Translations under genes and position numbers: made by a program | Notes under the pieces: generated by a model | Seen by the model: the letters and a program-made list of their open reading frames with translations, nothing else | Told to the model about the DNA's origin: nothing | Database searches by the model: none | Part shown: piece after piece, positions 20,601 through 31,683 of the stretch | Layout of the letters: the number at the start of each line of letters is the position of its first letter | How positions within the stretch are numbered: the first letter of the stretch is position 1 | DNA from: Candidatus Shapirobacteria bacterium | GTDB lineage: Bacteria > Patescibacteriota > Microgenomatia > UBA12405 > UBA6130 | Reading direction: 5' to 3' | DNA length: 43,881 nucleotides | NCBI GenBank assembly: GCA_027039485.1 | Contig: JALWDZ010000009.1 | Span: 1 to 43,881 of the forward strand

Positions 20601-21362
20601 ATATTCCTCTTCGGAAAGGGTGGTAAACAAGTTAACCGTTTTCACCCGCGCCAAGAGAGTGCTTTCTAAATTCTTGAGATGGTCTTTTTCCAGCAAAAAG
20701 CGCTCTTTCTCCCGTTGGATCTTTTGGTTATAGTTAACCGTCAGTTCCATTTGCGCCAAGCGCCGCTGTTCTTTATTTTTAATCTTCTCTTCAAGCCGAT
20801 GCTTATCACTCTGCAAATGCTCCCGGAGGGACTTAACTTCCTGGCGGCTAATTTCCCGCTGGCGCTCAATTTCTGCCTTAATGCCTTCTTTCAAATTTTC
20901 CACCGCCTTGGCCCGCCCGCCTTCATCAAGGCTAATAACCAAATAGCGGGCAAAATAAACCACCGATTCAATTTCCTTTTGGGAAATGCGCAACAAAAGG
21001 GAAATTGGCGAGGGGTAATTTTTCAAAAACCAAAGATGGACTACCGGGACGGCCAAAGAAATGTGGCCCATCCGCTCCCGGCGCACCCGGGAAGTGGTTA
21101 CTTCCACACCACATTTGTCGCAAATAACCCCTTTAAAGCGGATTCCCTTGTATTTGCCGCAATAGCATTCGTAGTCTTTGGTAGGGCCAAAAATGCGCTC
21201 GCAAAAAAGGCCGTCTTTTTCCGGCCGCCAAGTCCGGTAATTAATTGTTTCCGGCTTGGTAACCTCGCCATAGGACCACTGGCGGATTTCTTCCGGCGAA
21301 GCGAGACGGATTTTCAATCCTTTAAAGTCGATGATGTTTTTATCGAAAAAGTCTTTACTCAT
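17628..21362 (-). CDS. rpoC: RNA polymerase subunit beta'
   Basis: 1244 aa. The catalytic magnesium motif NADFDGDQM is at 547-555 (Asp549, Asp551, Asp553). The N-terminal zinc site uses Cys66, Cys68, Cys81 and Cys84, and a second Cys cluster lies in the EEDCGTHEG to [10 protein letters not shown] region. The clamp, bridge helix and trigger loop ([22 protein letters not shown]) are present. It overlaps rpoB by 8 nt, so the two largest RNAP subunits are translationally linked. Confidence 0.97.
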
Positions 21363-24300
21363 CTTTAGCCTTGACCGCTTCCGGCTGGCGGCGGACTGCC
21401 CCCACCGGGGAAACTTCTAACGCCAAACCTGCTAACTCGCGGACCAAAACCCGGAACGATTCCGGCAAAGTCGGATGGGGAGTGTCCTCACCCTTAATGA
21501 TGTTGCGGAAGGCCTGGGTACGGCCGGCGGTATCGTCTGATTTGATCGTCAGCATTTCTTGCAAAGTATAAGCCGCCCGGTGCGCTTCTAAAGCCCAAAC
21601 CTCCATTTCGCCAAACCGCTGGCCGCCCATCCGTGCCTTGCCTCCCAATGGCTGCTGGGTCACCAGTGAATAAGGTCCCGTTGACCGGGCATGAATTTTA
21701 TCCTCCACCATATGGTGCAATTTATTGATGTAACCAACGCCGACCATCACCTTTTGGTCAAAAGGCTGGCCAGTTTTGCCATCAAAAAGGGTCATCCGCC
21801 CGTCAGCCGGATAGCCGGCCTTTTGCAAAAGCTCCCGGATAACTTCCTCCGGCAATTTGTTAAAGCTGGCCACAGCATATTTTTGGCCTAATTTCTTGGC
21901 GGCCAATCCCAGGTGGGCTTCCAAAAGCTGGCCCAAATTCATTCGGGCAATTACCGAAAGCGGAGAAATTAAAATATCCACCGGCGTGCCGTCGGCTAAA
22001 TAAGGCATATCTTGGACCGGCATGACCCGGGCAATAACCCCCTTGTTGCCGTGGCGGCCGGCAACTTTATCACCCTCTTGAATCTTGCGCAATTGAGCCA
22101 CGGCCACCCGGACAACTTTATTGACGCCCACTTCTAGTTCATCACCCTTGGCCCGGTCGAGAATGCTGATACCGATGACAATTCCTCCTTCGCCGTTGGG
22201 CACCCGGAGGCTAGTATCGCGAACCTCCTTAGCTTTTTCGCCAAAAATGGCCCGCAGCAATCGTTCCTCGGCGGTTAGCTCTTTTTGCCCCTTAGGTTCA
22301 ACTTTGCCCACCAAAATGTCATTTGGGCCAACTTCAGCGCCGATCATCACAATTCCGTCTTCGGTTAACCGGGCCAAATCGGCCTCGCTTACCCCGGGAA
22401 TATCCCGCGTTAACTCTTCCGGCCCCAGCTTGGTATCAACCACTTTAGCCTCATATTCGTTAATTTTTATCGACGTAAGAGTGTCATCCTTGACCAGCCG
22501 GTCAGAAATTACAATGGCATCTTCGTAGCCCAGGCCCTCAATGCAGGCATAGGCAATCAAAAGGTTGCGGCCTAAAGCCAACTCACCGTTATCAGTCGCC
22601 GGGCCATCGGCCAAAAGGTCGCCTTTCTTAACCCGATCGCCAACCACTACCCGCGGCCGCTGAGAATAGCAAGTGCCGTTGGGGCTGGTAATCTGGTGGC
22701 GGAAAAGCCGATAAACATGCTGGCCATTTTCGATTTTGAAGCTGTCGTCTTGAGGCAATTCCTGCCGGCGCGTGGGCTTAACCACAATTTTTTCGGCGTC
22801 AACATAGGTCACCCGGCCGTCGGCCCGGGCGGTAATGACCCGGCGCATTGCCTGGGGAACAATTGCCTCCATGCCGGTGCCCACTACCGGCGCTTCCGGC
22901 TTAACCAAAGGCACTGCCTGGCACTGCATATTCGAGCCCATCAAAGCCCGGTTTGCTTCATCGTGGGCAATAAAGGGAATCAACGAAGCCGACAAGCCCA
23001 AAATTTGCTGGCTGCAATAATCAATGAGCTGAATTTTTTCGGCCTCAACCTCTAAAAAACGCCCCTGATAGCGGGCCGGAACAATTTTATCCTGGATAAA
23101 GCCTTTTTCGTCAATTTTAACCCCGGCCAAGGTGATGTAATAATTCATTTCGTCATCAGCCTGCAAATAAACCACTTCCGAGGTCACTTGGGGCACCTTT
23201 TTATTACCTACTCTCACCAGCTTGACCCGCCGGTAGGGAGTTTCCAAAAAGCCATATTTGTTGACCCGGGCAAAAAGGGCTAAATAAGTCACCAGGCCAA
23301 TATTCATCCCTTCTGGCGACCGGACCGGGCAAATCCGCCCGTATTGGGAACTGTGAATATCGCGCACCGAAAAAGTGGCCCGCTCGCGGGTAATGCCCTC
23401 CGGACCGGTTACCGTCACCTTGCGCAAAAGGTCAAGCTCAGAAAGAGGGTTTGTTTGGTCTAAAATTGACGAAAGCTGGTTGGTCTTGAAAAAGGCGTTG
23501 ACGGCATTAATCAAAGGCTGGCCGTTGACAATTTGGACCGGGCGCACTTTTTCTTTGACGCTTACCAAACTCATCCGCTCGCGAATAACCCGTTCAAAGC
23601 GGAGCATGGCCCGGCGCAGAATCGACTGGGTCAAAATTTCCCCCACCCGGCGGAGACGGCGGTTAGCCAAATGGTCAATGTCATCCAGTTGCAAATCTTG
23701 GCCACTGGCTAAACCCAAGAGATATTTTACCGTCGCCTTAATATCTTCCGGCTGCAAAACCCAATACTTAGGATTATCCTCGGCAAACTTGAGGCCCAGC
23801 CGCTTGTTAATTTTATAGCGGCCGACAACTCCCAGGCTGTAGGTGCGGTTATCAAAAAACAAAGTCTTCAGCAAATTGCGGGCATTTTCCACCACCAGCG
23901 GCTCCCCGGGGCGGAGGCGGCGGTAAAATTCCAGCCAGGCTTCAACCTGGGTCCGGCTAGTATCTAAAGCCAAAGTAGGCTCAATTTCCTTGCCAAAAAT
24001 TTTCTCTAGTTCTTTCTCATCACCCAAGCCAATGGCCTTGAGAAGAATCGTGACCGGAAATTTGCGGCGACGGTCAATTCGGGCATACACCACTCCTCGG
24101 CTACCAACAAGAAATTCCAGCCAAGAACCGTGAAGGGGGCGAATTTCGGCTCGAAAAAGGTCTTGGTGGCTGGCCGGATCAGTCTCGGAGACAAAATAAA
24201 CCCCCGGCGAACGGACCAATTGGTTGTTAACTGCCCTTTCTACCCCGGCAATAACAAAAGTGCCGTTTTGGGTCATCCAGGGAAAATCCATCAAAAAAAC

Positions 24301-24612
24301 TGTCCCCCGAGTTTCCTGATTGGTCCGCTTATTTAAAAGGCGCACCTTAGCCCGCAAACCCGCCGCATAAGTAAGGCCCTTTTCTCGGGCCCGCCGGGGA
24401 GTAATCCGGGGCTGGTCAAAAAAGACATCATCAAAAAAGAGAGCCCAATTTTTCCCGGTATAATCTTCAATTGGGCTTGCTTGGCGAAAGAGTTCTTTAA
24501 TGCCCTTTTCGGCAAATTCCCGCCAAGAAGATAATTGAAAATCAATCAGTGCTTCTGGTTTGGGCAGAATTGGTTTAGTGCCTAAAAAAGACCGTTTTTG
24601 TTGCCCCGTCAT
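21355..24612 (-). CDS. rpoB: RNA polymerase subunit beta
   Basis: 1085 aa, compact because the large lineage-specific insertions of Proteobacteria are absent. Core blocks present include YGRICPVRSPEGMNIGLV, GSNMQCQAVPL, AYACIEGLGYEDAIVIS, GDKVAGRHGNKGVIARV and GGKARMGGQRFGEMEVWALEAHRAAYTLQEML. The fork-loop/rifampicin pocket (378-402) carries Ser382, Leu395, Lys398 and Thr400 where E. coli has Gln513, His526, Arg529 and Ser531. It heads the whole minus-strand block from a consensus promoter; rplKAJL does not lie upstream. Confidence 0.97.
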   Translation of the reverse strand: MTGQQKRSFLGTKPILPKPEALIDFQLSSWREFAEKGIKELFRQASPIEDYTGKNWALFFDDVFFDQPRITPRRAREKGLTYAAGLRAKVRLLNKRTNQETRGTVFLMDFPWMTQNGTFVIAGVERAVNNQLVRSPGVYFVSETDPASHQDLFRAEIRPLHGSWLEFLVGSRGVVYARIDRRRKFPVTILLKAIGLGDEKELEKIFGKEIEPTLALDTSRTQVEAWLEFYRRLRPGEPLVVENARNLLKTLFFDNRTYSLGVVGRYKINKRLGLKFAEDNPKYWVLQPEDIKATVKYLLGLASGQDLQLDDIDHLANRRLRRVGEILTQSILRRAMLRFERVIRERMSLVSVKEKVRPVQIVNGQPLINAVNAFFKTNQLSSILDQTNPLSELDLLRKVTVTGPEGITRERATFSVRDIHSSQYGRICPVRSPEGMNIGLVTYLALFARVNKYGFLETPYRRVKLVRVGNKKVPQVTSEVVYLQADDEMNYYITLAGVKIDEKGFIQDKIVPARYQGRFLEVEAEKIQLIDYCSQQILGLSASLIPFIAHDEANRALMGSNMQCQAVPLVKPEAPVVGTGMEAIVPQAMRRVITARADGRVTYVDAEKIVVKPTRRQELPQDDSFKIENGQHVYRLFRHQITSPNGTCYSQRPRVVVGDRVKKGDLLADGPATDNGELALGRNLLIAYACIEGLGYEDAIVISDRLVKDDTLTSIKINEYEAKVVDTKLGPEELTRDIPGVSEADLARLTEDGIVMIGAEVGPNDILVGKVEPKGQKELTAEERLLRAIFGEKAKEVRDTSLRVPNGEGGIVIGISILDRAKGDELEVGVNKVVRVAVAQLRKIQEGDKVAGRHGNKGVIARVMPVQDMPYLADGTPVDILISPLSVIARMNLGQLLEAHLGLAAKKLGQKYAVASFNKLPEEVIRELLQKAGYPADGRMTLFDGKTGQPFDQKVMVGVGYINKLHHMVEDKIHARSTGPYSLVTQQPLGGKARMGGQRFGEMEVWALEAHRAAYTLQEMLTIKSDDTAGRTQAFRNIIKGEDTPHPTLPESFRVLVRELAGLALEVSPVGAVRRQPEAVKAKDE

Positions 24613-24647
24613 TCTTTGGGGGATCTCCCTTTAAAATTTTTAATCAC

Positions 24648-24678
24648 AAAAAGAGGGCGACCTACCGCCCCGCTAGGT
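24648..24678 (-). promoter_or_regulatory. rpoB leader attenuator-like hairpins
   Basis: Minus-strand leader. Stem ACCTA/TAGGT (24674-24678 with 24660-24664) and stem GGGCG/CGCCC (24666-24670 with 24655-24659) interleave, and the second is followed by TC and five T (24648-24652). The second stem has intrinsic-terminator form. Loops of 0-3 nt make a simultaneous pseudoknot unlikely, so the stems look mutually exclusive. The arrangement lies between the rpoB promoter and start codon. Confidence 0.6.
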
Positions 24679-24702
24679 TGTAATCAAGCCAAATTTGTTC
24701 CG

Positions 24703-24731
24703 ATTATAACCCCCTCTCCCGCCAATGTCAA
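24703..24731 (-). promoter_or_regulatory. Consensus sigma70-type promoter for rpoBC and the ribosomal block
   Basis: On the minus strand TTGACA (24726-24731) and TATAAT (24703-24708) match consensus perfectly, with an exact 17-nt spacer. The predicted start near 24696 gives a leader of about 85 nt that includes the hairpins at 24648-24678. A second TATAAT lies upstream (24797-24802) but has no fitting -35. Confidence 0.88.
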
Positions 24732-24870
24732 ATCGAATTGAAATCTAAGAAGCGTGAGGCGCTTTATACCTTTCGCTTCGTAAATTTCATACAACCATTA
24801 TACTCTAGCAAAATGATAACTACTTACTTCAGGCTAGTTTTCAACTATGCAAATCTCACCGCTTACAAGC

Positions 24871-25680
24871 TTAAGGAATAGGATAATAGATTTTGGTCAG
24901 GTAGTTGTAATCTATAGACGTATTAGATGGCCCCCGGATATACATTTCAAAAACCGGTAAATGGACGGGAACATTATGCTTGACAAAATACCAATCTATT
25001 TTGCGAAAGAACATCGTTAAAAAACGATAAGGGCCCAAAAACTCGAACTCGTAAGCTCGACGGCGAGCATAATATTCTACTTGAAAGCCAACCGGTAAAC
25101 GGCAGCCAATTTTCCCTTTTTTAATTATCAAGCCAATCTTTAAATCCGATGCTAGAGGATCAAAACGGGGCGTTTCGTAAAAGGTTAGCTCGACCGGAGC
25201 AAAAGTAGCCCCACAACGGCGGGCCACCCGCCATGTGTGTTGGACATAATCATTAATGCGAGCATAGCTGCCCCTTTTTATTCGGTGGGTTAACAACTGC
25301 CAGTCGCCTATTCGCACCTTCTTTAAAGCCGGCTTTTTTCTTTTCAAAAATTTATGCAAAGAAAGCAAAAATTGTTTTTTAGCTCTAAGAAAAGCCAATT
25401 CCTGATCTAATTTCTCTATTCTCGTTTTAAATTCGCTTTCTTGTTTTCCCTGTAGAGGAATATCCTTTAATTTCACCCCCAACTCTTGCCACCATTTAAT
25501 CGCCAGCACCCGATCCACTTGGTCAAGATGATAGTAGCGATAATGGGTCCACTTATCCTGACGATAGGGCTTCAACAGTCCGTGTTTCTGCCAAAGACGC
25601 AAAGCTCGCGGCGTGGTCGAAGAGGCTTTGGCAAATTCAGAAATAGATAAAAGTTTGCCTTGACTTTGACGCTGGGTCAT
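24871..25680 (-). CDS. MerR-family regulator with GyrI-like effector domain
   Basis: 269 aa. The N-terminal winged HTH (LLSISEFAKASSTTPRALRLWQKHGLLKPYR, then HYRYYHLDQVDRVLAI, residues about 9-62) is MerR type. A predicted coiled coil (about 80-112) leads to a C-terminal domain (about 120-269) resembling the GyrI/BmrR ligand-binding fold. BmrR-like proteins sense small hydrophobic or cationic compounds; the ligand here is unknown. It is divergent from the ATPase gene at 25700 with only 19 nt between start codons, and is likely its regulator. The transcript appears leaderless. Confidence 0.8.
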   Translation of the reverse strand: MTQRQSQGKLLSISEFAKASSTTPRALRLWQKHGLLKPYRQDKWTHYRYYHLDQVDRVLAIKWWQELGVKLKDIPLQGKQESEFKTRIEKLDQELAFLRAKKQFLLSLHKFLKRKKPALKKVRIGDWQLLTHRIKRGSYARINDYVQHTWRVARRCGATFAPVELTFYETPRFDPLASDLKIGLIIKKGKIGCRLPVGFQVEYYARRRAYEFEFLGPYRFLTMFFRKIDWYFVKHNVPVHLPVFEMYIRGPSNTSIDYNYLTKIYYPIP

Positions 25681-25714
25681 AGTTTATGATACCGTCACCA
25701 TGGCTACTTATCAA
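25660..25714. promoter_or_regulatory. Bidirectional promoter between merR-like gene and ATPase gene
   Basis: Plus strand: TTGACT (25660-25665), 19-nt spacer, TATGAT (25685-25690). Minus strand: TTGATA (25709-25714), 17-nt spacer, TATCAT (25686-25691). The two -10 boxes share the same base pairs. The plus promoter's spacer holds a dyad TGAC-N5-GTCA (25666-25678), the layout of MerR-activated promoters with 19-20 bp spacers. The predicted starts fall at or within a few nt of each ATG, so both mRNAs would be leaderless. Confidence 0.65.
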
Positions 25715-27406
25715 ATTTTAAGCAAAACTAAAAGGTTTTTATCATCAGATTGGCAGAAGCTAGAAAGCCAAATTAGGCCATTCGTGTCTAGTTTTTCCCT
25801 AACCCTCGTTCTTAAGAACCAAACCTTTTCTTTCTACCTAACCACCCCCCGAGATATTACCCCTCTCCTGTCTAACCAGCACAAGCTCTTCTTTAAAAGA
25901 GCAATTTTACCTTCCTGCCACCCCTCTCGTCTTCGGCCCATGTTCACCCTGCCTAACAACCTTTTTGACTTTATCGCCAACCGCCAACTCAAAAAAGCAC
26001 AAGCTTTCTCTTGTCTTACCATCAAACGTTTACATTTCCCCCTTCCTCTGTACTTAACTTTGGTCACTTTCAGCAGCTTCGATAAGCAAAAGCAAAGCTA
26101 TTTCCATCTTAGCTTCCGTTCTCCCTACCGCCTTCTCGCCTTGAATTTTACTCAGCACCACACCTTTCATATTAAAACTCTTCCCAAATTTACCAACCCA
26201 CGCAAGATTAAACCCCTTCTCGCCCCGTCTTCCCAACAAGCAATTGCTAAAGTGGACCTTTTTCCTCACCATCTCAGCCCTTTTTACCTCCCTGTTAGAA
26301 GTGTTAATTGGACTAAACACTCGCTGGTTATCGGTCAAACTGGTACCGGGAAATCTAAACTTATCCAACTTATTCTCGGCCGCCTTAATCAGCAAAACGA
26401 GATTCCTGTTAGAATAATCTTGATTGACCCCCATGTTAACTTGGCCACTTCACTCCAACAACTTTTCCCCCAGCGATCCACCCTGGTTGACTTTTCCCAT
26501 AATTCAGTGGCTCTTTTTGCCCCCACTGCTAACCCCAATACCGCTACCGAGTTAACTTTTCTCCTCTTTAAAACTCTCCTTGGCGATCAATTTAATTCTT
26601 TCCTAGCCCGCCTTCTTCGCTACACCCTCTTTGCCCTCTACGCAACCAATAACGCTTCCCTCATTAAAATCAAAAAGCTACTAACCGACGAAAAGTTCAA
26701 AAATAGAGTCGTCCAAAGTTTGCCCCCTTCATATGTCACTTTAAAACATTTTTTTGAGACTGACTTCATCAAATACCAAACTACCTATTATGAGACTACC
26801 TTTATTCCCCTTATCTCCCTTTTAGAAGAGCTTGACTTCCTACCCCAATTGGCTCGCCCAGAAAAATCGCTGGCCCAGGCCATTAACCAGCAACCACTAA
26901 CAATCTTTTCCCTTAACCGTCTTCAACTCGGTGACACTAATACCAAACTCATCTCTGGTCTTCTGATTCAACAAATCTTTCTCCTGGCCCAAGCCCATAT
27001 TTTTCGAGAACCCATTATTTTAGCCATTGATGAAGCACCTCTTATCGAAAATGCTGCTTTTGCCACTATTCTTTCCCAATCTCGCAAGTTCCATCTTTCC
27101 CTTTTGCTTTCCTATCAGTATCTTAACCAAACAAACACCCAGCTTTTGGAATCATTGAAAGCCAATATCTATAATTATTTCGTTTTCAAAACTTCTAGCG
27201 ACGATGCCGCCCTTTTGGCCAATTTTATCGATCTCAAAATCTCGCCCCAACTGCAAGAAAATCTCCCAGGCAACTTTTCCAAAACCCAAATTTTTACCGA
27301 TCTCAACCCCCGCCAGTTTATTGGCCGCCTCTTCCATAAAAATAAATTTTATCCAGCATTTAAAGCTAAAACTATCGATGTTAATTATTTGACTTCATCC
27401 CTATGA
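25700..27406 (+). CDS. HerA/VirD4-like P-loop ATPase
   Basis: 568 aa. Residues 1-200 are an unrecognised N-terminal domain without clear membrane segments. The ATPase core has Walker A GQTGTGKS (212-219), a LIDPH motif near 242-246, Walker B ILAIDEA (441-447) and a sensor-like SQSRKFHLSLLLSYQYLNQ. This layout fits the FtsK/HerA/VirD4-VirB4 superfamily, whose members pump DNA or protein. It overlaps the next gene by 4 nt (ATGA). The coding strand is unusually pyrimidine-rich. No other conjugation genes are nearby, so a stand-alone role is likely. Confidence 0.8.
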   Translation: MATYQILSKTKRFLSSDWQKLESQIRPFVSSFSLTLVLKNQTFSFYLTTPRDITPLLSNQHKLFFKRAILPSCHPSRLRPMFTLPNNLFDFIANRQLKKAQAFSCLTIKRLHFPLPLYLTLVTFSSFDKQKQSYFHLSFRSPYRLLALNFTQHHTFHIKTLPKFTNPRKIKPLLAPSSQQAIAKVDLFPHHLSPFYLPVRSVNWTKHSLVIGQTGTGKSKLIQLILGRLNQQNEIPVRIILIDPHVNLATSLQQLFPQRSTLVDFSHNSVALFAPTANPNTATELTFLLFKTLLGDQFNSFLARLLRYTLFALYATNNASLIKIKKLLTDEKFKNRVVQSLPPSYVTLKHFFETDFIKYQTTYYETTFIPLISLLEELDFLPQLARPEKSLAQAINQQPLTIFSLNRLQLGDTNTKLISGLLIQQIFLLAQAHIFREPIILAIDEAPLIENAAFATILSQSRKFHLSLLLSYQYLNQTNTQLLESLKANIYNYFVFKTSSDDAALLANFIDLKISPQLQENLPGNFSKTQIFTDLNPRQFIGRLFHKNKFYPAFKAKTIDVNYLTSSL

Positions 27407-28143
27407 AAGAGTCCGTCGCTCTTGAGATTACCCGCCAAACCTGGTTGGCTATTTTCGGTAAGCCCTCCCCTTTCCAAAATCTACCATCGGTAAAAGTAAC
27501 ACTCGCCCGGGGTATTCCTCTCCCCAAAAAAGTAATCACCGGCCAGGGCCCCGCTTATACCACCCCTACCTATTTTCCCACCCCAAACAAGTACCTCAAC
27601 TTCTCAACTTTTCAGGCAGCCGTCCCCACCCCAGCACCACCAGCCTCTCCTTCCATTGCTCACCTTATTAACCTCTGGCTAAAAAACACAACCTGGGCGG
27701 CCAACAAGAACTTGAATTCTGTCGATGTCGCTAAATCCGATAATGTTTACCGCAGCCAAGGTGTTTATAATTCCAGTTACATCTTTAATTCCCGCAACAT
27801 TGTCTTTTCCCAACAGCTCCTTGCCTGTCAGAACCTAATCGCCAGCCACCACAACGATGCCTGTTCTAATAGCATTCGCATCAGCGATAGCGTGAATTCT
27901 TCCTACTGCTTTAATGTTTCCTGGTCTAGCAAAATCGCTCGTTCTCTGTTTATCCACAATAGCAGCAACCTCTATGAATGTATGTTTTGCCAAAATTTGC
28001 GTTCCCGGCGTTACTGCATTGCCAACATCCAATTCTCGCCCGAACAATATTTTACCCTTAAGAAACAAATCATCGGCTACCTTTCGCAAGACAATTGGAC
28101 CCCGCTTTTCCAGCTCCTTGGGTATAAAATACCTCAAAATTAA
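27403..28143 (+). CDS. Beta-helix-like repeat protein, CPR-type family
   Basis: 246 aa, coupled to the ATPase by a 4-nt overlap. Residues about 1-95 are proline- and threonine-rich with no recognised fold. Residues about 100-215 show imperfect 10-12 residue repeats of the form S-x-x-I/V-x-x-S/C/N, suggesting a right-handed beta-helix. The end RRYCIANIQFSPEQYFTLKKQII resembles the 'YCIxNKQYSKEEY' ending I remember from a large CPR protein family that usually also has N-terminal CxxC ribbons; those are missing here. Function unknown. No signal peptide is visible. Confidence 0.6.
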   Translation: MKESVALEITRQTWLAIFGKPSPFQNLPSVKVTLARGIPLPKKVITGQGPAYTTPTYFPTPNKYLNFSTFQAAVPTPAPPASPSIAHLINLWLKNTTWAANKNLNSVDVAKSDNVYRSQGVYNSSYIFNSRNIVFSQQLLACQNLIASHHNDACSNSIRISDSVNSSYCFNVSWSSKIARSLFIHNSSNLYECMFCQNLRSRRYCIANIQFSPEQYFTLKKQIIGYLSQDNWTPLFQLLGYKIPQN

Positions 28144-28202
28144 TACGCTATCTCACAGTTTTCTAATTATTTACTTTATACCCAATAGCAACAGCGTGTC
28201 TT

Positions 28203-28940
28203 TTAATTTTTCGGCTGCCAGGGAATGAAATCGTAAAAAGCTTTCTGGTTGCCAACTGCCTGTCTAATTTTAAACTTTAAGTCCTTAGATAAAGTTTCAT
28301 TATTCCAAAAGGTTAAGCTGTAGTTTTCTTTCTCCAACAAGTTGTCCAAAACACTTTGGCTGGGAAAATAATAAATTGCCCTAACAGGGAAAGTGACCAG
28401 CTGACAGTTATCACCCAACATGTTTTCCATCGTTTGGGTCATAGCCCTGGTGTATCCCTCAGCAGCGTCGGGGGTGGTTGTCCAGCCAAGGGAAAGGATC
28501 GCCGCCGGACAATAATGGCATGCTAAAGTTACAAATTTCTCAGGCTGAAACGCCGAAGGCTTACCTCCCGGACCGGGCAAAATATCAGCATTGAGCATTA
28601 AGGGTGCTTTCTCGGCCGCCTGTTCGCTTTGCAACCGTTGCAAAACTGGCTCCACTATTTCAGGAACCTTGAAATCCAGCTTTATCCCCCGCCGGGAAGC
28701 GATCACTGTCTCCAGCCACTCATCCAAAGTCAAATCGCTTTCTCTTGCTGGGGGATGGGCCATTATAATCTGGCTGTTTTCTCCCAAAGAAACATCGCCT
28801 TCTAGAAACATCTTTTCTGAAGAAGCTAAGACCTTCTCTAAATAACGCCGATTATTAACGGCGTGGGCCCAAGTGATATCGCCAATGGCTGCCACCCCAA
28901 AATACTCCGCCACTTGATGCCAAGACCTAAACCCTCCCAT
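28203..28940 (-). CDS. FAM151/menorin-like (DUF2181) domain protein
   Basis: 245 aa, essentially one domain. It matches the FAM151/menorin family along its length: ITWAHAVNN (His26), EGDVSL (Glu47, Asp49), IMAHPPARESDLTLDEWL (His62), GIKLDFK (Lys87, Asp89), NADILPGPGG (Asp119), LGWTT, EGY, VTFPVRA and YSLTFW. The fold belongs to the PLC-like/GDPD phosphodiesterase TIM barrels, and the acidic and His residues expected of a metal site are kept. Substrate unknown. No signal peptide is seen, so it is probably cytoplasmic. It is convergent with the beta-helix gene. Upstream, TTGGCA-16-TAGGAT is a weak promoter candidate. Confidence 0.85.
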   Translation of the reverse strand: MGGFRSWHQVAEYFGVAAIGDITWAHAVNNRRYLEKVLASSEKMFLEGDVSLGENSQIIMAHPPARESDLTLDEWLETVIASRRGIKLDFKVPEIVEPVLQRLQSEQAAEKAPLMLNADILPGPGGKPSAFQPEKFVTLACHYCPAAILSLGWTTTPDAAEGYTRAMTQTMENMLGDNCQLVTFPVRAIYYFPSQSVLDNLLEKENYSLTFWNNETLSKDLKFKIRQAVGNQKAFYDFIPWQPKN

Positions 28941-29043
28941 TTCCCAATCCTAGCATATTCAACCCTCCTGCCAAAACAGCGGCCCGCAAGAAAGAATAAT
29001 ATGGAGTCTCTAGAGGGCGGTAAACTGACAATGTAAATCAGAT

Positions 29044-29064
29044 ACCCAGTTGAAGAAGCTGGGT
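29044..29064. repeat. Small hairpin ACCCAG-N9-CTGGGT
   Basis: Six-base arms with a TTGAAGAAG loop in the gap between the FAM151-like gene and the antitoxin. The same word family (CCCAGCTGAAGAT, CCAACTGAAGAT) recurs at 37280-37332, so this is probably a degenerate copy of a dispersed element. Confidence 0.5.
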
Positions 29065-29146
29065 GTAAAACTCAGCATAACAGCAATAGGAAGGAAAAGC
29101 GTTTCTGTGACTAAGCATTGCAAGAGTGGTAAAGCGCTACAGGGCC

Positions 29147-29185
29147 TTGACAAAGGTCCAAAAAAGGACTAATATAGTACTATAT
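29147..29185 (+). promoter_or_regulatory. Toxin-antitoxin promoter with nested dyads
   Basis: TTGACA (29147-29152), 17-nt spacer, TAATAT (29170-29175). The spacer is filled by GTCC-A6-GGAC (29156-29169), and a perfect 14-bp palindrome ATATAGTACTATAT (29172-29185) covers the -10 and reaches the start codon. These are natural operator sites for the ribbon-helix-helix antitoxin. Transcription would begin at about the ATG, giving a leaderless message. Confidence 0.7.
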
Positions 29186-29438
29186 GAACTCAATGCAAGT
29201 AAAAGTCACTTTACCGGCCCCGCTTTATGATTATGTTCGGACTAAAGCTCAGCGTTTTGGTTTAACAATGTCAGCCTACCTGAAATACTTAATTTTTGAG
29301 GACGCCAAAGATACGGCAATCCCTGAATTCACCATGAGTCCGACAACAGAAAAAGTAGCCATTGACGCTCTCAAGCAGTTCCGATCAGGCAAAACCAAAA
29401 GGGTTCGCTCTCTCGATAAATTTATTAACTCCTTATGA
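29184..29438 (+). CDS. Ribbon-helix-helix antitoxin
   Basis: 84 aa; an ATG three codons downstream is also possible. Residues about 4-40 (VKVTLPAPLYDYVRTKAQRFGLTMSAYLKYLIFED) have the strand-helix-helix pattern of Arc/MetJ-type DNA-binding antitoxins. The C-terminal half (TEKVAIDALKQFRSGKTKRVRSLDKFI) would wrap the toxin. It overlaps the toxin gene by 4 nt (ATGA). Promoter palindromes suggest autoregulation. Confidence 0.8.
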   Translation: MNSMQVKVTLPAPLYDYVRTKAQRFGLTMSAYLKYLIFEDAKDTAIPEFTMSPTTEKVAIDALKQFRSGKTKRVRSLDKFINSL

Positions 29439-29695
29439 ATCTTCACTATACCAACCATTTTAAACGACGTCTTAGACAAAGATTCAAGAAAAAACCAAGC
29501 CTAAAAAAGAAAGTGATCGCCCAACTAAACTTGCTCCTCGAAAACCCTGGAGCTCCCTCTTTAAGGCTTCATAAACTTAAGGGAAAGAGAATTAATCAAT
29601 ACTCTATTTGGATCGAAGCAAACTTGCGAATAACTTTTATAAAGGAAAAGCAAACATATATTCTTACCGATGTGTTGACTCATGACCAGTATTGA
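29435..29695 (+). CDS. RelE/YafQ-type toxin
   Basis: 86 aa basic protein. The RelE-fold pattern is clear: a helical N-terminus (NHFKRRLRQRFKKKPSLKKKVIAQLNLLLENP), then LRLHKLKGKRINQYSIWIEANLRITF and the terminal DVLTHDQY, matching the family's HKLxG, sIxi.xxlRi and THDxxY motifs. Related toxins cleave mRNA on the ribosome. It is translationally coupled to the antitoxin, forming a complete type II module, and is followed by a repeat-rich noncoding patch. Confidence 0.82.
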   Translation: MNLHYTNHFKRRLRQRFKKKPSLKKKVIAQLNLLLENPGAPSLRLHKLKGKRINQYSIWIEANLRITFIKEKQTYILTDVLTHDQY

Positions 29696-30115
29696 AACAC
29701 CAAGAGGGTCTTAATGTTTCGCAATATACGCCACATTCACAATGCATCCCGTGCGGCATATTACCCGAGGTTGCCTGCCCCGACTCCGCCGTCCGCCAGT
29801 TGGCGGAGGCGGAACGTCCTGGAGCTTCACTCCGCCTTCGGCTTCGTTCAGGACGACTTCCTAAGATACTAAGACCTAAGTTCCAAACTCCAAGTTCTAA
29901 CAACCTAGTTCCTCCAACCTAGTTCCTAGCTCCATTTTTTAACTTTCCACTTTTCACTTCTTTTTCACTTTTCATTTTCCACTTTTCACTTCCTTAGTCC
30001 CTAGCCCCTCGCCCTTCGTCCCACAGCGCTAGCTGTACCTCGCCCTTCGCTCTTAGCTCTTAGGCCTTTTCAGCCTAATTCCTAATTCCCGTTGTTTGTT
30101 GTTTGTTGGTAGTTG
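29696..30115. other. Noncoding, repeat-rich gap
   Basis: No gene is supported in these 420 bases. The left part (29778-29855) contains palindromic sequence, including an inverted CGTCCTG/CAGGACG pair (29815-29821, 29849-29855). The right part (about 29880-30000) is a pyrimidine-rich stretch of near-repeated words (CCTAGTTCC, CTTTTCACTT) that recurs in the same orientation at about 37503-37600. No tRNA or CRISPR structure is seen. Confidence 0.75.
29778..29818 (-). repeat. Copy of 42-bp palindromic repeat (inverted relative to 37066-37107)
   Basis: 41 bases that match the reverse complement of 37066-37107 with one C/T change and one missing base. The core is the near-palindrome TCCGCCGTCCGCCA...GGCGGA. 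The change breaks perfect symmetry, so this copy is degenerate. Confidence 0.8.
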
Positions 30116-30703
30116 TTAGCTGGCTGCTGCTTCCCATCGTTTCAAGAGAGCTTGGGGGTGGGGCGGAACTAAGGAAGGGCAATGTCTCTCCCGCTGGCGG
30201 CGCAGCTCGTAGAGGGTAACACCCACGGAAACGGAAAGATTTAGACTGTCAACAAAGCCAAACATGGGGATATAAATTGTCTGGTCGGCTAAATGGCGCC
30301 CCAGCGGGGAAACGCCCCGATGCTCATTGCCAAAAACCAGAGCAATTTTTGGCTGGCAAAAATCAACCTGCCATAATTTCTGGCTTTTCTTATCCACCAC
30401 CGTTGCCCAAATCTGATAGCCTTTATCTTGTAAAGTATCTAAAGCCTGGCGAGTGCTAAACCAAAGATGGAAATCAAGCCACTTATTTACTCCCGCCGCT
30501 GAAGACCGCCCCATCCGCCGCGGGTTAAAAGCCTTTTCTTCTTCAAAAATAAAGTGCACCTCCTGGACACCAAAGGCATCGCAATTTCGCAAAGCAGCCA
30601 AAACATTGTGAGGATCATGAATATCCTCAAAAACAACCGCTACATCGGCATAACGTTGTTTTGCTACCGCCAGCATTCTTTTCTTTCTTCGCGCAGTTGT
30701 CAT
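30116..30703 (-). CDS. trmH: SpoU-class tRNA (guanosine-2'-O)-methyltransferase, TrmH-like
   Basis: 195 aa SPOUT methyltransferase. The three SpoU motifs are clear: motif 1 DIHDPHNVLAALRNCDAFGV (28-47), motif 2 ALVFGNEHRGVSP, and motif 3 IPMFGFVDSLNLSVSVGVTLYELRRQR. The length and the IPMxGxxxSLNVSV form match TrmH, which methylates G18 of tRNA, more than the rRNA-directed RlmB, which carries an extra N-terminal domain. It is last in the alaS operon, overlapping mltG by 4 nt. Confidence 0.85.
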   Translation of the reverse strand: MTTARRKKRMLAVAKQRYADVAVVFEDIHDPHNVLAALRNCDAFGVQEVHFIFEEEKAFNPRRMGRSSAAGVNKWLDFHLWFSTRQALDTLQDKGYQIWATVVDKKSQKLWQVDFCQPKIALVFGNEHRGVSPLGRHLADQTIYIPMFGFVDSLNLSVSVGVTLYELRRQRERHCPSLVPPHPQALLKRWEAAAS

Positions 30704-31683
30704 TGCCCTTGAAGATAACGACGAATATTGGCCTGGTGCTCAGCTAAAGTGGCCGCAAAATGAAGATGGCCCTGCTGATCAGAAACGTAATACCAATCAT
30801 TAGTTTTTGGCGCCGTGGCTACGGCCACCAAAGCGGCCAAAGAAGGGTTGCAAATTGGCCCCGGCGGCAAGCCTGGCCGAAGATAAGTATTGTAAGGAGA
30901 GGCAACTTTTAAATCCTGGTGGCTTACCGGCGGCCACCAATTACACTCCAACCGCTGCTGACAATCCCGGCTGGCTTTGGCATATTGGACGGTAGCATCG
31001 ACTTGCAACGGCCAACCGGCCCGCCAGCGGTTCAAAAGGACGGCCGCCACCCGCGGGCGATCGGCGGCAAATTTTGCTTCCCGCTCGACCAGAGACGCCA
31101 GAACCAGCCACTCCTTTTCCGCAAGCCCCTGTTGCTTTCTTTTTTCTTGCCAGGGCGCCGTTTTTTGGCGAAAAGTTTTTTTCAGTAAAGCCAAAATTTG
31201 GTCTTCATTATAATAAGGAGGAATAAGATAGCTATCGGGGAAAAGGTAACCTTCTTGGCCTTGGCTCAGTTTCAAAAATCGGTAGCCATCAAGGTGCAAT
31301 TGGCGTTGAACTAAAGCGGCAATCTGTTCCCGCCGCCAGCCCTCAGGCACCCGCAGCCAGCGGTCTAAGCGCCCCTGGGCCAAAGCCCGGCCGATTTTTG
31401 CCACCGGCCAACGGCCATCAAGGACAAACTTGCCAGCCTGCAATTTTCCCTGAAGATGGGCATAATAAACCCAAAAACGGAACCCCCACGGAGAACGGAT
31501 TAATTTTTCCCGCGCCAAAAGTTGACTAATATCGGCTAACGACATCCCGGGAGAAATAATGACCACCTTTTGCCCCACCTCACCCCGCGGTTGCCAGGAC
31601 CAATAAAGCCAACTGCCCCCCAGAAGAATAGCTAAAATTAGCGCCGCCAAGACTCCCCGGAGCCAAGGCCAAATGTTTTTCAC
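30700..31683 (-). CDS. mltG: Endolytic murein transglycosylase MltG
   Basis: 327 aa. One N-terminal membrane anchor (residues about 9-28), a LysM-like subdomain (GMSLADISQLLAREKLI, about 46-62), then the YceG catalytic domain with EGYLFPDSY (144-152), VLASLVEREA with catalytic Glu200, LQVDATVQYA and SPYNTYLRPGLPPGPICNPS. It cleaves nascent glycan strands on the outer face of the membrane and sets their length. It lies 2 nt after the zinc-ribbon gene and overlaps trmH, linking wall processing with the sortase upstream. Confidence 0.95.
   Translation of the reverse strand: MKNIWPWLRGVLAALILAILLGGSWLYWSWQPRGEVGQKVVIISPGMSLADISQLLAREKLIRSPWGFRFWVYYAHLQGKLQAGKFVLDGRWPVAKIGRALAQGRLDRWLRVPEGWRREQIAALVQRQLHLDGYRFLKLSQGQEGYLFPDSYLIPPYYNEDQILALLKKTFRQKTAPWQEKRKQQGLAEKEWLVLASLVEREAKFAADRPRVAAVLLNRWRAGWPLQVDATVQYAKASRDCQQRLECNWWPPVSHQDLKVASPYNTYLRPGLPPGPICNPSLAALVAVATAPKTNDWYYVSDQQGHLHFAATLAEHQANIRRYLQGQ

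Follow-up and report, generated by a model that had tools for sequence, protein, structure and literature searches.

The window, a stretch of 43,881 nucleotides from a Candidatus Shapirobacteria bacterium of the CPR, harbors the gene of a real member of the Menorin/FAM151 family. We consider it likely, with a probability of roughly 0.7, that the 245-amino-acid product is a cytosolic, single-domain enzyme of the GDPD/GDPD-like phospholipase D (PLD) superfamily which converts a phosphodiester to a cyclic phosphate in a metal-assisted reaction. The family has been studied almost only in animals, where it has been linked to retinal degeneration in mice and to dendrite patterning in worms.

The gene is an intact open reading frame with an ATG start and no internal stop codons (Table 1). 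Its product matches the Pfam family PF10223 (Menorin), the former DUF2181, with C. elegans MNR-1 and human FAM151A and FAM151B among its members. At an E-value of 2.2e-60 and 204.6 bits the match is far beyond chance (the curated cut-off being 25 bits), and PF10223 is the sole Pfam family found by hmmscan at E≤0.1. Residues 21–238 of the protein align with positions 4–237 of the 242-position profile and all blocks are present, which bears out the original prediction of a FAM151/menorin protein matched over its full length. A profile search of the whole 695-kb genome revealed this single Menorin copy. The protein has the full-length profile and the predicted PLC-like phosphodiesterase active site in common with animal MNR-1 and FAM151A/B. 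By contrast, it is short, confined to one domain, without a membrane anchor and apparently cytosolic, as neither a signal peptide nor a membrane segment is apparent in it by eye.

Table 1. Coordinates of the menorin gene, its predicted active-site codons and a candidate promoter in the window.
Feature	Position	Strand	Basis
Menorin (PF10223) single-domain protein gene, 245 aa	28203..28940	(-)	ORF list, Pfam, AlphaFold
H26 codon, predicted catalytic histidine after beta1, W-A-H-A-V-N block	28863..28865	(-)	Invariant in 29/29
E47-G48-D49 codons, predicted metal ligands, end of beta2	28794..28802	(-)	E47 and D49 invariant in 29/29
H62 codon, second predicted catalytic histidine, AHPP block	28755..28757	(-)	Invariant in 29/29
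D89-F90-K91 codons, predicted third metal acid and lysine, beta3, KLDFK block	28668..28676	(-)	D89 and K91 invariant in 29/29
Candidate promoter TTGGCA-16-TAGGAT, extended -10	28947..28974	(-)	Pattern scan only, weak

A (beta-alpha)8 barrel was predicted for the 245-amino-acid protein by AlphaFold from an alignment of eight bacterial menorin members (pLDDT 92.1; pTM 0.90). The C-terminal ends of the strands form the catalytic face in this fold, and nearly all conserved residues of the model are located at or just past them. H26, E47, D49, H62, D89 and K91 are invariant in all 29 bacterial menorins collected, as are W24, N29, N117, S150 and W153; the last three belong, together with T210, W212, Y236 and D237, to a further set of (nearly) invariant residues at the C-terminal strand ends. 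The metal site predicted to be intact has kept all of its putative metal-binding and acid/base residues, and no loss of ligands was seen in the bacterial alignment. When the menorin profile was aligned with CPR GDPDs by hhalign (E-value 2.1e-4), E47 and D49 came to lie opposite E35 and D37 of the GDPDs, H62 opposite H50, and D89-F90-K91 opposite an E-I-K motif. H26 is situated outside the aligned block and was equated with the first GDPD/PLD histidine by motif order and spacing.

The spacing of the six residues is 21/2/13/27/2 in the menorin and 27/2/13/53/2 in a CPR GDPD; for spider phospholipases D it amounts to 20/2/13/44/2, as far as the residue numbers given in PMC6299612 indicate. Judged by its short H–E loop and the absence of a GDPD-I insertion, the menorin arrangement resembles that of GDPD-like PLDs more closely than that of GDPDs, in line with the HHpred result published for FAM151 (PMC6965129). 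With the GDPD-like SMase D/PLD proteins (sicariid toxins and their bacterial relatives) it shares the H/E/D/H/D/K set, near-identical distances between the first four residues, a short beta-alpha-1 loop and the lack of the GDPD-I domain. Unlike in those proteins, there is no evidence here for a secreted toxin, and none of their chains in the PDB was matched in sequence by either phmmer or an eight-sequence profile, whereas HHpred with a larger FAM151 family profile does detect the link (PMC6965129).

In the PLC-like superfamily, a neighboring hydroxyl attacks a metal-bound phosphodiester and a cyclic phosphate is formed. FAM151 was placed in this superfamily, with its substrate unknown, by Findlay et al. 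(2020; PMC6965129), and cyclic-phosphate chemistry has been demonstrated for GDPD-like PLDs (PMC3756997). Based on the GDPD/PLD active-site set, we infer that E47, D49 and D89 may hold a divalent metal that binds the phosphodiester, with H26 and H62 acting as acid and base and K91 steadying the phosphate. A substrate hydroxyl beside the phosphate would then attack phosphorus and expel the alcohol head group. The cyclic phosphate left behind might be hydrolyzed later, which is possible but not certain. A plausible substrate would be a small soluble glycerophosphodiester, a lysolipid head group or a sugar phosphodiester. Phosphodiester cleavage, named originally as the likely chemistry, is supported to this extent by the residues present; the superfamily assignment and the conserved active site had, however, already been described in the animal proteins (PMC6965129). 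The catalytic idea is therefore not new but largely anticipated, and our addition is the bacterial picture: a search of one literature library for DUF2181 and PF10223 yielded no paper on bacterial members, the three that name either term being all concerned with animal proteins. No enzymatic activity of any Menorin protein is reported in the papers found.

The protein is a real bacterial copy, as originally proposed, yet it is no lone oddity because Chloroflexota carry the family too. Within the CPR it is rare and patchy. PF10223 was detected in two of 44 genomes of the source order, the second menorin (also from Candidatus Shapirobacteria) being 36–38% identical, and of 380 genomes drawn from across the phylum only the window's own exceeded the cut-off. 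Six of 400 Chloroflexota genomes were above it. Menorins are present in 22 of 46 genomes of the Caldilineales (here the order of G724) and in four of 47 genomes of the chloroflexotal class of G1076; with 33–39% identity and the same invariant residues, these are close counterparts of the CPR protein. One of the six Chloroflexota hits is a protein (L014:1111-2589) in which an HAD-phosphatase-like N-terminus is fused to a divergent Menorin-like domain scoring 27 bits against the cut-off of 25 and retaining H-G-V-N, E-V-D and K-L-D-L-K. Another chloroflexotal genome (G996) contains two near-identical copies on different contigs (L011 and L015). A weak PF10223 match in G272 (L003) was discarded as an ordinary GDPD by eye. 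In a tree restricted to bacterial members the two CPR sequences stand apart. As their placement is weak (66/29) and the branches are long, we claim no direction of transfer.

The Caldilineales loci offer a genomic clue. In 21 of 22 a YbjN-like gene directly precedes the menorin gene, and in 14 of those 21 it is itself immediately preceded by a conserved gene of 92 codons. A supported clade of seven loci has genes for an aldehyde dehydrogenase and/or bacterial microcompartment (BMC) shell proteins beside menorin: five contain several BMC/EutN shell genes plus a pyrophosphatase gene, two are short contigs, and DeoC is present in four. In L034, L036, L065, L067 and L068 the menorin gene is found among BMC, EutN, aldehyde dehydrogenase, pyrophosphatase, MBL and YbjN genes, with DeoC in four of them. 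SPU-type loci are defined by shell proteins together with DeoC (PF01791) and RpiB (PF02502) (PMC8217296). By this comparison the loci of the clade would resemble SPU microcompartments, since BMC, EutN, aldehyde dehydrogenase and DeoC are present, but inspection of about 20 kb by eye revealed no RpiB. Because RpiB is unseen and most loci lack a compartment, we regard the microcompartment as a lead in the search for a substrate and not as a function.

These neighborhoods bear on the possibility that the substrate of the CPR protein is a sugar- or nucleic-acid-derived phosphodiester or another non-lipid compound, as might hold for the chloroflexotal relatives beside DeoC, aldehyde dehydrogenase and microcompartment genes. 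The YbjN-like neighbor at 21 of 22 loci and the clade of seven are compatible with this idea, and so are DeoC near the deepest-branching locus (L064), which has no shell genes, and the view that SPU compartments use DNA breakdown products (PMC8217296). We nevertheless consider it unlikely. DeoC and BMC neighbors are missing at the 14 other Caldilineales loci and at all other Chloroflexota and CPR loci, the gene in the window having neither a YbjN-like neighbor nor a BMC locus, so the link is not general; in addition, SPU loci have two signature enzymes, and one of these, RpiB, escaped detection by eye near menorin. A wider scenario can be imagined, albeit with little confidence, in which Menorin is an ancient family of bacterial enzymes that has its root in the Chloroflexota and spread to CPR and animals. 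Together with a YbjN-type partner it would cleave a phosphodiester of sugar or glycerol, in some Caldilineales feeding a DeoC/aldehyde-dehydrogenase microcompartment, and the neuronal role in animals would have been built on this enzyme. In practical terms, the small, soluble single-domain protein and its diverse bacterial relatives are expressible material for finding the substrate, and the YbjN-like neighbor conserved in some of them is a genomic hint at what that substrate is.

In C. elegans, menorin serves an adhesion complex as a ligand (PMC10546877), so that catalysis is perhaps not the function everywhere, and the active site has been lost from the second FAM151A domain (PMC6965129). 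The CPR protein might be a non-catalytic binding protein that retains the fold in an adhesive or scaffolding role. This is very improbable given that not one of the 29 bacterial members deviates at a catalytic residue, which is not expected under pure binding, and that no export signal is apparent.

The bacterial menorin can also be compared with GDPDs proper (PF03009; e.g., PDB 3qvq, a GDPD with glycerol-3-phosphate). Common to both are the TIM barrel, the E-x-D and histidine residues and a lysine that follows the third acid. The highest TM-scores (0.57) among the listed PDB matches belong to the GDPDs 3qvq and 3i10. Nine of the 15 best Foldseek matches to viral models (BFVD; E≤0.001) carry GDPD/GP-PDE or phospholipase names; of the other six, five are unnamed and the last is annotated as a putative tail fibre. 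The barrel alone is not decisive for kinship with GDPDs, since other TIM barrels in the PDB search come close to them in TM-score, in the moderate range of 0.5–0.6, and in E-value. The differences from GDPDs are several: H26 and E47 are 21 residues apart versus 27 in the CPR GDPD, reflecting the absence of a long beta-alpha-1 loop; H62 and D89 are 27 apart versus 53, i.e., without the GDPD-I insertion; and the third acid is Asp where true GDPDs have Glu. The Asp and the missing GDPD-I imply that substrate and outcome may differ from those of GDPDs. The shared fold class and active-site residues would fit an ordinary GDPD misread as Menorin and hydrolyzing glycerophosphodiesters to glycerol-3-phosphate, a role that the protein could fill since a genome-wide profile search with PF03009 found no GDPD. 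This reading is largely refuted by the profile scores (PF03009 unmatched at E≤0.1, nothing relevant in NCBIfam, hence no better GDPD match of the kind that was to speak against the original prediction); the loop, insertion and Asp just described and the presence of all Menorin-specific invariants also speak against it.

The menorin gene is chromosomal. It is located among housekeeping genes, in the roughly 6 kb between rpoB (21355–24612) and mltG (30700–31683; named by eye), where the GC content is about 0.40–0.50 compared with 0.47–0.56 in the surroundings. In a genome of the same family (G003) only some 200 bases separate rpoB from mltG; the interval (24613–30700 in the window) is occupied in G002 by a different gene, cation exchanger-like by eye. 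The MerR and ATPase genes described below recur in a genome of the same genus (G001), whose contig ends short of the menorin position. Given this variability between related genomes, a recent gain or loss of the menorin gene is probable. Cargo of a phage or plasmid was rejected as an origin on finding no menorin relative in phage, plasmid or viral-contig collections; PHROGs did not match the protein either, and a defence gene was dismissed as PADLOC gave no match for the menorin itself.

The promoter pattern scan returned six candidates versus 2.8 expected by chance. Transcription from the candidate upstream of menorin would start at the ATG, making a leaderless transcript possible.

Further features of the interval were noted. 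A MerR-type regulator and a HerA/DUF87-like ATPase are divergently transcribed at 24871–27406, have weak PADLOC matches (mad1, mad8) and might form a vestigial or minimal defence-like pair. The ATPase gene is directly followed, with overlapping stop and start codons, by a reading frame of 246 codons (27403–28143) for which Pfam, NCBIfam, PADLOC and PHROG gave no confident match. A RelB-like/YafQ-like toxin–antitoxin pair at 29184–29695, below Pfam cut-offs, is divergent and separate from menorin, which was therefore rejected as its partner. Finally, a dispersed non-coding repeat family is represented at 29778–30120; dozens of copies are spread over the contigs of two genomes (G000, G001), with a few in G002, and the assembly may break at repeats of this type.
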